Assembly: GCA_947473805.1 (NCBI GenBank)
Contig: CANJGB010000001.1
Coordinates: 167,413-231,412 of the forward strand
Length of the DNA stretch: 64,000 nucleotides
Reading direction: 5' to 3'
Source: Alphaproteobacteria bacterium
Lineage (GTDB): Bacteria > Pseudomonadota > Alphaproteobacteria > Ferrovibrionales > Ferrovibrionaceae
Both the position numbers and the translations under genes were made by a program. How positions within the stretch are numbered: position 1 is the stretch's first letter; each line of letters begins with the position of its first letter. The notes under the pieces were generated by a model that saw nothing but the letters and a program-made list of their open reading frames with translations, had not been told where the DNA came from and ran no database searches. Positions 23,508 to 27,076 of this stretch are shown piece after piece.

Positions 23508-23532
23508 CGGCCCGGTAATCCCGGGCCGTTTT
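23508..23532. terminator. Terminator between trxA and folC
   Basis: CGGCCCGG (23508-23515) and CCGGGCCG (23521-23528) form an 8-bp stem with the 5-base loop TAATC, followed by TTTT on the plus strand. It ends trxA transcription and touches the stop codon of the convergent folC. Confidence 0.85.
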
Positions 23533-24842
23533 CATTTGTGCTCCGCCAGGACCTGGCCGGCGAGATAGAGCGAGCCGCAGATCAGCACGCGGGGCGGCGG
23601 CACGCTGGCCGGTAAACTGGCCGCGGCGGCTTCGACGCTCTCCGCCGCTTCCGCCTCGAGCCCCACCTCGCAGGCAAAAACCGCCATCGCCTCGGCGGAA
23701 AAACTGTTGGCCTCGCCGGGAATCGCCACCGTGCGCACGCGCCGCACCAGCGGGACGAGTGGCCGCAACAGGCCGCGCGGGTCCTTGGTGTTGAGCATGC
23801 CGGCGATCAGGTCCAGCGGGCGTGCGTCGCGGCGCGCGAAATCGGCCATCGCGGCGGCCAGCACTTCGCCGGCGGCAGGATTGTGTCCGCCGTCCAGCCA
23901 CAACTCGCTGCCGGGCGGCAGCAGTTTCAGCAGCGGGCCCTGATGCAGGCGCTGCAGCCGTGCGGGCCAATCCACGTTGCGTAAGCCCTTCGCCATGGCT
24001 GCGCGATCGAGGTTCGGCAGATTGAGCTGCATGGCACAGGCAATGGCCGCGCCGGCATTGTCGATCTGGTGCGGTCCGGGCAGTGCCGGCAGCGGGAAGT
24101 CCAACGTGCGGCCATCGCCGCGCCAGCGCAGGCCATCGGGGAAGCGTTGCGCGCTCCAGTCGTCGCCATGGCGGAACAGCGGCACGCCCAGTGCGCTGGC
24201 GCGGGCCGTCAGCACCTTCATCGGCTCCGCGCCTTGCGGCCCCAGCACGCACGTGATGCCCGGCTTCATGATGCCGGCTTTCTCGCCGGCGATCTCCGTC
24301 AGCGTATCGCCCAGGAAACTCTGGTGGTCGTAGGACACCGGCGTTATTGCGGTCAGGGCAGGGCGGTCGATCAGGTTGGTCGCATCCAATCGTCCGCCAA
24401 GACCGGTTTCGAGCAGTACGAGGTCGGCCGGCACCTCGGCGAAGGCGAGGAATGCCGCCGCGGTGGTGATTTCGAAAAAGGTGATCGGCCGGTCGCCATT
24501 TGCGCGCTCGCACCGCTCCAGCAGGTCGATCAGGTGGTCGTCGCTGACCAGTTCACCCGCCACGCGGATGCGCTCGTTGAACCGTACCAGATGCGGCGAG
24601 GTATAGACGTGCACCTTCAGGCCCGCGGCCTCGGCCATCGCACGCAGAAACGCCACCAGCGACCCCTTGCCGTTGGTGCCGGCGACATGGACGACCGGCG
24701 CCAGTCGATGGTGCGGATTGCCGAGATCGCGCAGCAGGTCGCGCACCCGGTCGAGCGTCAGATCGATCGACTTGGGATGCAGCGCCGTGAGGCGCTGGAG
24801 AATCAGGTCAGTTCTTGGCGCGCTTGGGGCTGGGTGCGCCAT
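23532..24842 (-). CDS. folC: Dihydrofolate/folylpolyglutamate synthase FolC
   Basis: A 436-residue Mur-ligase-fold enzyme that adds glutamate to dihydropteroate and lengthens the folate tail. It shows the P-loop [14 protein letters not shown] (about residues 53-66), [24 protein letters not shown] and, near the C-terminus, DGGHNPAA. The ATG at 24842 overlaps the 3' end of accD by 35 bases, which supports co-transcription; a start 12 codons upstream would lie deeper in accD. It is the last gene of the minus-strand operon. Confidence 0.94.
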
Positions 24843-25752
24843 GGGGGATCGGTTCTGCGGCCGCGACTTCCTTGCCAATGCGCTTGCCCTTGGGTGTCCT
24901 GGCCTGGGGCTGCATCAGCAGATCGACGAGGCGGACCAGCGTGTCGCGCAACTGGTGCCGGTGCACGACCATGTCCAGCATACCGTGCTCCAGCAGATAC
25001 TCCGCGCGCTGGAATCCCTCGGGCAGGGTTTCGCGGATTGTCTGCTCGATGACACGCGGACCGGCGAAGCCAATCAGCGCTCCGGGCTCGGCGATCTGCA
25101 CATCGCCCAGCATGGCGTACGACGCGGTGACGCCGCCGGTGGTCGGGTCGGTCAGCACGACGATATAGGGCAGGTGTGCCTCGCGCAGGCGCTGCACGGC
25201 GATGACCGTGCGCGGCATCTGCATCAGGCTTAGGATGCCCTCCTGCATGCGCGCGCCGCCGGCAGCGGCGAACACGATCAGGGGCGCGCGCTGTTCGATG
25301 GCGGCAAGGCTGGCGGCAACCAGCGCCTCGCCCGTCGCCATGCCCATCGAGCCACCGAGGAACGCAAAGTTCTGCACCGCGATGACGGCCTTGTTGCCGC
25401 CCATGCGGCCGCTGGCGACCTGCACGGCCTCCTTGTCGCCGGTCTTGGCGCGCGCGTCCTTCAGGCGGTCGGGATATTTCTTGGTGTCGCGGAATTTCAG
25501 CGGATCGGCGGCAACGTCGGGCAGGTCGATGACCTGCCATTTGGCGTCGTCGAACATGGCGCGGAAGCGATCGGCGGGGCCGATGCGCATGTGGTGGCCG
25601 CAATGGCTGCACACGAACTGCGCCGCCTCGAGGTCACGAAGGAACAGCATCTGGCCGCAACCCGGGCACTTGCGCCACAGGTTCTCGGGCGCCTCTTTCC
25701 TCGCGCCGAGCGCGCGGATCTTCGGCAGGACGTTTTTGGTCAGCCAGTTCAT
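24808..25752 (-). CDS. accD: Acetyl-CoA carboxylase carboxyltransferase subunit beta
   Basis: A 314-residue subunit of acetyl-CoA carboxylase, which makes malonyl-CoA for fatty-acid synthesis. The N-terminal zinc ribbon has Cys29, Cys32, Cys48 and Cys51 (CPGC and CSHC). The crotonase-like core includes [21 protein letters not shown] and [16 protein letters not shown]. The start is the ATG at 25752. In related genomes trpB and trpA separate trpF from accD; here only 22 bases do. Confidence 0.96.
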
Positions 25753-25774
25753 GCCCGCAATCTACCCCGTTTCA

Positions 25775-26365
25775 TCAGGCGGCGCGCGCCGCTTCCAATA
25801 CCGCGCGGATTTGCGCCACCGTACCCGCCAGGTCCAACGATGGCGCCGGAATGACGTTCACCGCCGGCACCCCGGCCGCCGCCAGACGGCGGATTTCCGC
25901 CGCTTCCGGGCGGCAATCGATCAGCCAGGGGCGCCGCGCGCGCCAGGCGGTCAGCAACGCGACGTCGCTGTCCGCGCTGAAGCGCAGCCAGTCGGCGTCC
26001 TTGTATGCATTGGCCGCCTCCAGGTCCGCTGCGGACCGCGCCGCCAGCGACTTGATGACGGGCAGTTTGAACGTGGTGCGCAGCGCGCGCACGCGGCCCG
26101 GCTCCTCGTCGCCATTGCATTGGATCAGGTCCAGGCCACCTTGTTTCAGCACGGCGCCGATCAGCGTATCCTCCGCATCGGCAAAGACGCCGACCCGGTC
26201 CGAGCCGCTCGGCACCAGCGCCAGCAGCGATCCTGCCTGTGAGGCGGTCAGCGGGTTCGGTCCCGCTGGATCGAAGGTGAAGCCCAGCATGTCGGCCTCG
26301 AACCCGATGGCGGCGGAGACGGCGCCCGGACTGGCCAGGCCGCAGATTTTCACGAACAGGGCCAT
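25775..26365 (-). CDS. trpF: Degenerate phosphoribosylanthranilate isomerase (TrpF-like)
   Basis: A 196-residue TrpF-family beta/alpha barrel. The N-terminal half is recognisable: VKICGL with the general-base Cys8, RVGVFADAEDTL, and IQCNGDEEPGRV where most TrpF have LHGDE. The C-terminal half is not. The general-acid Asp with its GG(S/T)G loop, the SGGL strand and the DVSSGVE phosphate-binding motif are all missing; the region reads LIDCRPEAAEIRR and NVIPAPSLDLAG. Isomerase activity is therefore doubtful. It lies 6 bases after pyrF and 22 before accD, with trpBA absent. It may be a decaying gene kept in frame or a protein with another use. Confidence 0.75.
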   Translation of the reverse strand: MALFVKICGLASPGAVSAAIGFEADMLGFTFDPAGPNPLTASQAGSLLALVPSGSDRVGVFADAEDTLIGAVLKQGGLDLIQCNGDEEPGRVRALRTTFKLPVIKSLAARSAADLEAANAYKDADWLRFSADSDVALLTAWRARRPWLIDCRPEAAEIRRLAAAGVPAVNVIPAPSLDLAGTVAQIRAVLEAARAA

Positions 26366-26371
26366 GCACAG

Positions 26372-27076
26372 TTACGTACGCAATTCCGTGCCGATGGCGC
26401 GTGCGGCGGCCGCAGGGTCTGTCGCGCCGGTAATGGGCCGGCCGATGACGAGATAATCCGCGCCCAGCGTCATGGCTTCGCGCGGTGTCATGACACGCTT
26501 CTGGTCGCCGGCATCACTGCCTGCCGGGCGGATGCCCGGTACGACCAGCTTGAACTTCGATCCGGCCTGCGTGCGCAAGCTCGCGATCTCGGTTGCCGCG
26601 CAGATCACGCCATCGCAACCCGCCGCCTCGGCCAGCGCGGCGAGGCGCTTCACTTGTGCCTCCACGGTCCCCGACACGCCGGTCGCCGCCAGGTCGCTGG
26701 CATCCAGCGAGGTCAGCACCGTCACCGCCAGGATCAGGGGCGTATTCTTTGCGGCCCTTGCCTCCGCCACCGCCGCCTTCAGCATCGCGCTGCCGCCGCC
26801 CGCATGGACGGTCAGGCAGAACGGCGCCACGGCGGCAATCGCGGCGCGTACGCCGCCGGCCACCGTGTTCGGGATATCGTGGAATTTCAGATCCAGGAAC
26901 AGGGCCGCACCGGGCGGCAATACCGCGCGCACGCCCTGCGGCCCGTGCGCGGTGAAGAACTCCTTGCCCAGCTTGATGCCAAAACCGGCGGCCGCGGCCG
27001 AAGCGGCAAGGCGCTTCGCCTGGTCCAGGTCGATGGTGTCGATGGCGCAGAACGCCAGCACGCCGGGTGCGGTCAT
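26372..27076 (-). CDS. pyrF: Orotidine 5'-phosphate decarboxylase
   Basis: A 234-residue enzyme for the last step of UMP synthesis. The catalytic charged array is DLKFHD at residues 62-67 (Asp62, Lys64, Asp67), followed by IPNTVAGGV. The phosphate-binding GIRP and IGRPITGA occur near the C-terminus. The ATG at 27076 overlaps the lapA stop by four bases. In contrast to its trpF neighbour, every key motif is intact. Confidence 0.96.
   Translation of the reverse strand: MTAPGVLAFCAIDTIDLDQAKRLAASAAAAGFGIKLGKEFFTAHGPQGVRAVLPPGAALFLDLKFHDIPNTVAGGVRAAIAAVAPFCLTVHAGGGSAMLKAAVAEARAAKNTPLILAVTVLTSLDASDLAATGVSGTVEAQVKRLAALAEAAGCDGVICAATEIASLRTQAGSKFKLVVPGIRPAGSDAGDQKRVMTPREAMTLGADYLVIGRPITGATDPAAAARAIGTELRT

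Follow-up and report, generated by a model that had tools for sequence, protein, structure and literature searches.

In the 64,000-nucleotide stretch of alphaproteobacterial DNA analysed here (the window), a trpF-derived gene lies between pyrF and accD, and we consider its product to be, with fair probability, a displaced and catalytically dead TrpF that is still folded and has been kept as a pseudoenzyme in the pyrF-accD operon. A full set of tryptophan genes is present elsewhere in the same genome, trpB and trpA have been lost from the window locus, the active site of the remaining TrpF is gone, and the constraint on this protein is unevenly distributed along its length.

The minus strand of the window reads pyrF, the trpF-like ORF, accD and folC, without trpB and trpA (Table 1). 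The ORF is separated from pyrF by only a few bases in a tight operon arrangement, its frame is open across all 196 codons, and no promoter- or terminator-like site was predicted between pyrF and accD. A first-pass annotation of this DNA had already pointed to the 22-base spacing between trpF and accD without trpBA, to the intact pyrF and to the in-frame gene, and all three observations are borne out. It had also described trpF-trpB-trpA-accD-folC as a standard run, which agrees with six loci of the family and with many loci of the class. A TrpF match was found in all 17 other family genomes, and the 14 sequences that were read through are all intact. In the six family loci that were read far enough, trpBA stands beside trpF in the order pyrF-trpF-trpB-trpA-accD-folC (in one of them pyrF falls past the contig end), and thus trpB and trpA were lost at the window locus. 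Since the C-terminal helix of the window TrpF is complete up to the end of the ORF and the distance to accD is close to normal, this loss can be placed between trpF and accD. In one relative (G012:C9; L007 / L048) the trpF frame continues, beyond an ambiguous base, with residues unlike TrpF, and the trpA match is in two pieces, which is probably an assembly error of that genome.

Table 1. Features of the pyrF-folC locus in the window and positions of the trpF-derived ORF compared with family orthologs.
Feature	Position	Strand	Remark
pyrF	26372..27076	(-)	intact; Pfam 173.5 bits; evolutionary rate normal
trpF-derived ORF, 196 aa	25775..26365	(-)	predicted complete (beta-alpha)8 barrel without PRA isomerase active site
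Cys8 codon	26342..26344	(-)	catalytic cysteine kept (ortholog alignment)
Codon 37	26255..26257	(-)	family-invariant Arg -> Asn
Codon 84	26114..26116	(-)	His of QLHG motif -> Asn
Codon 130	25976..25978	(-)	general-acid Asp -> Ser
16-residue in-frame deletion site	25964..25969	(-)	between residues 133 and 134; GG(N/T)G loop (loop 6) removed
Codons 150-153	25907..25918	(-)	(S/A)GGL -> DCRP
Codons 170-174	25844..25858	(-)	DVSSG -> NVIPA; whole motif DVSSGVE -> NVIPAPS
Junction from trpF-derived ORF stop codon to accD ATG	25753..25774	(-)	exactly 22 bases; trpB and trpA here in family members
accD	24808..25752	(-)	intact
folC	23532..24842	(-)	intact; last gene of conserved run

The genome, a draft of 3.31 Mb in 58 contigs with 95% completeness, was searched for trpA, trpB and a second trpF, as the first-pass annotation had proposed, and all three were found on contig C12. 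This contig carries a tight and intact run of trpB-trpA-trpD-trpC-trpF, and the TrpF encoded by its last gene is full length (156.5 bits) and keeps all motifs (Cys, Arg, His, Asp, GGSG, AGGL and DVSSGVE). In the whole-genome search trpA has a single match, on C12, and the same is true for trpC. A fused trpE(G) of 726 amino acids is present as a single gene on contig C5. Judged by gene content, the tryptophan pathway is complete. Loss of tryptophan synthesis, which had been listed as one option for the window locus, is excluded at this level, because trpBADCF on C12 and trpE(G) on C5 together supply the set. At E <= 0.001 the genome has no Chorismate_bind match other than this trpE(G) gene (L094:3183-5363 on the minus strand; G000:C5). 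A separate pabB-type gene was not seen in this search at the same threshold, although folC is present and folate synthesis is expected.

The C12 operon is probably a xenologous replacement, a foreign origin being moderately supported by sequence comparison. The identity of C12 TrpB and TrpA to the family is 0.68 and 0.52, compared with 0.79-0.84 and 0.65-0.71 within the family. In a TrpB+TrpA tree, which has weak deep support and was built from sequences chosen as best TrpA matches, C12 TrpBA branches outside the clade formed by the organism's family, with poorly supported placement among other lineages. Resident copies outside the own family clade are the mark of xenologous displacement, and we therefore read the C12 set as xenologous rather than as relocated native genes. 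Thus, of the suggestion that a complete trp set had moved, the presence of a set elsewhere stands, and a relocation of the native genes is the less probable origin. The nearest relatives of C12 TrpD are in genomes of other classes, with no more than ~49% identity, and those of C12 TrpA are in other families of the class (57-58%). The trpBADCF order was absent from the TrpD loci looked at, and a search for the donor through TrpD and TrpA matches and these TrpD loci identified none. Xenologous displacement of a biosynthetic operon is a general kind of event, and the present case shares with it the complete alternative operon and the missing native trpBA; unlike in the general case, one displaced gene, the window trpF, stays in frame with an apparently conserved scaffold.

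The draft state of the genome with its 58 contigs raises the question of an assembly artefact, in which trpBA and the true end of trpF were lost in assembly, or C12 was misbinned and the organism is auxotrophic for tryptophan. The HrpB gene beside the C12 operon is of no help here: its product shows ~53% identity to the family and to others as well, so that it does not single out the family and is uninformative on origin. However, the window ORF reaches its own TrpF-like C-terminus at normal spacing to accD, and it has diverged through many substitutions instead of a single break. Misbinning of C12 is argued against by its GC content, GC3 and tetranucleotide profile, which are like those of the rest of the genome, and by the fact that trpA and trpC occur only there. 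We regard such an artefact as scarcely credible.

The window TrpF itself has diverged strongly. Pfam PRAI (PF00697) matches the ORF with 39.9 bits (cut-off 22.7) over residues 5-123 only, and the best NCBIfam TrpF model reaches 101.8 bits against a cut-off of 216; the ORF lies below every NCBIfam equivalog cut-off. The protein was aligned with 14 TrpF orthologs of the family, and the positions compared were given the catalytic and binding roles that we take them to have from general knowledge of TrpF. Gln82 is kept like Cys8. A functional TrpF would be expected to have the Cys/Asp pair with the substrate Arg and the His, as well as the GG loop and the phosphate-binding motifs (S/A)GGL and DVSSGVE, and of these the window protein has the Cys and none of the others. 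The alignment confirms what had been read from the sequence at first pass, namely a kept Cys8, the loss of the general-acid Asp, GG loop, SGGL and DVSSGVE, and an Asn at the position of the His. The description of this protein as a TrpF that has lost its catalytic half needs correction: the active site is indeed gone, and the C-terminal half itself is present and homologous, minus the 16-residue loop. It aligns over its full length with ~32% identity, RPWL and the last helix can be recognised in it, and every indel is in frame. Compensating frameshifts as the source of the divergence in this half were rejected, as the other frames are unlike TrpF. A fusion between trpF and the last part of trpA was rejected as well, as the last residues match TrpF and not TrpA.

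AlphaFold2 run on the family alignment predicted eight strands and eight helices in order with a pLDDT of 93.2, a value that has to be read with the alignment of functional TrpF in mind on which the model leans; from the single sequence without alignment the prediction was unreliable (pLDDT 35). The best PDB match of the model is the Thermotoga PRAI 1lbm (TM 0.85). In the prediction from the family alignment the protein thus forms a (beta-alpha)8 barrel, and of the checks that had been proposed, the fold prediction points to a complete barrel and the inspection of the active site to its loss. In comparison with TrpF (PF00697; PDB 1lbm, 1nsj), the window protein shows whole-length homology, the family gene position, the predicted barrel and the catalytic Cys, whereas it has lost the general acid, the substrate Arg, the His, loop 6 and the two phosphate-binding turns and does not reach the NCBIfam cut-offs. 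An active isomerase, one of changed specificity or another enzyme that uses Cys8 in a rebuilt pocket would agree with the kept Cys8 and Gln82 and the complete predicted barrel. The missing active-site elements and the complete TrpF on C12 speak against it, and we consider continued catalysis very improbable.

The pattern of kept residues bears on whether the gene is decaying or retained. Of the residues invariant in the family, the N-terminal half keeps 26 of 31 and the C-terminal half 13 of 31 at ungapped positions (Fisher p=0.0013), with the split at 130 codons picked after seeing where the Pfam match ends and with part of the contrast due to which residues were invariant, as those of the C-terminal half are mostly active-site residues. 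Within the otherwise changed C-terminal half, hydrophobic character has been preserved at 20 of the 22 columns where every relative has a hydrophobic residue, against 19/46 for the remaining columns (p=8e-5). In the N-terminal half, a share of 0.22 of the residues occurs in none of the relatives, and functional relatives themselves reach 0.26; in the C-terminal half this share is 0.53, far above the 0.21 that functional relatives have at most. GC3 remains typical of coding sequence in the two halves (0.85 and 0.83). The branch of the N-terminal half is 0.80 compared with ~0.475 scaled from PyrF, that is ~1.7 times longer, and this half is therefore somewhat relaxed; the branch of the C-terminal half is saturated. 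In 1800 neutral simulations, in which genes of the relatives were mutated until the C-terminal half had changed as much as observed, no run retained the N-terminal half as observed. All of these constraint data come from one genome of its genus.

The main rival to a folded pseudoenzyme is slow decay with operon coupling. In this case no selection would have acted on the protein itself after displacement. The frame would have stayed open through the G+C-rich genome and through operon coupling, in which translation ties accD and folC to pyrF by excluding a premature stop and Rho polarity, and the translated protein must not misfold. We consider this rival rather unlikely. The tight operon around the gene fits such a remnant, as does the evolution of the N-terminal half, which is faster than PyrF predicts. 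Also, a neutral gene escaped stop codons in 2-11% of the runs over its whole length and in 16-42% over the C-terminal half alone. However, the joint outcome of 26/31 invariants kept in the N-terminal half and 18/31 lost in the C-terminal half was reached in 0/1800 uniform neutral simulations, and the kept hydrophobic core positions and the in-frame indels do not fit decay either. The stops, frameshifts and uniform loss of conservation of an ordinary pseudogene were not found; the loss is non-uniform. What was found is an enzyme homologue without catalytic residues beside a competent copy, which is one mark of a pseudoenzyme. Residue retention and simulation point to probable purifying selection on the scaffold of the window TrpF. 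The pattern appears to disfavour uniform neutral decay and suggests that selection acts on the folding of the protein and no longer on its catalysis of this reaction. Of the earlier option that a TrpF-fold protein was kept for a new role, retention seems favoured over plain decay by the kept residues, the role itself being a more tentative matter.

For the way in which a folded pseudoenzyme could have arisen at this locus, we consider one history the most probable. The lineage would have gained the complete trpB-trpA-trpD-trpC-trpF operon, which presumably has taken over the pathway, native trpBA would have been deleted between trpF and accD, and the native TrpF would have been released from catalysis. 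It has lost its recognised catalytic and phosphate-binding elements except Cys and Gln, including the in-frame loop deletion, and retains the reading frame, the predicted barrel scaffold and most of the N-terminal half. Most likely the protein is still translated within the pyrF-accD-folC operon and is predicted to be folded, without PRA isomerase activity. Potentially it has a non-catalytic role, such as the binding of a partner or ligand. We infer the order of these events, as well as translation, folding and role, from the genomic comparison. That the operon takeover turned TrpF into a barrel that stays folded and has exchanged catalysis for a new role, such as binding a partner or ligand tied to PyrF, AccD or the new Trp enzymes, is a tentative suggestion, less probable than the dead and folded state itself.

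TrpF is a textbook barrel for studies of enzymes that gain functions. A natural TrpF with stripped catalysis and an apparently kept scaffold, in which the cause of the release is visible in the same genome, could be a starting point for studying the passage from enzyme to non-enzyme. It would also be a warning that not every trpF-like gene counts as pathway evidence. In the literature collection searched, no paper on a TrpF pseudoenzyme turned up. PriA (HisA/TrpF) of Actinomycetota is a barrel isomerase whose history follows trpF gene loss and which gained TrpF activity (PMC13055916), whereas the window protein, a predicted barrel, is predicted to have lost the same activity. In eudicots, TSB-like is a noncatalytic paralog of the tryptophan synthase beta subunit, with changes at two key residues, and has been shown to activate TSA (PMC12727527). 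Both TSB-like and the window TrpF are tryptophan-pathway copies without key residues, next to a competent copy that catalyses; the active site of the window TrpF is stripped much further, and for TSB-like a partner, TSA, has been shown (PMC12727527). If a partner- or ligand-binding role is true, the window TrpF would be a pseudoenzyme in the sense of plant TSB-like (PMC12727527).

A scan of genome contigs gave distant cyanobacterial and actinobacterial matches only. Sixteen other genomes have second PF00697 matches, which were rejected as further dead TrpF of the window type; they belong mostly to a separate paralog family with other neighbours or are pieces or copies of ordinary TrpF. The paralogs, found in other alphaproteobacterial genomes (L113-L122, L124), are full-length TrpF-like proteins with 45-82 bits to PF00697, encoded away from the trp genes tested, and form a group distinct from that of the window protein. 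Three of the four paralogs read have KVCCISS/KICCISS, LGGTGR.H(D/N)W and D(V/L)CS-type motifs. One genome (G046:C48, L112) has, in addition to an ordinary trpF, a second trp run of the order trpD-trpC-trpF-trpB, the TrpF of which carries a long insertion.
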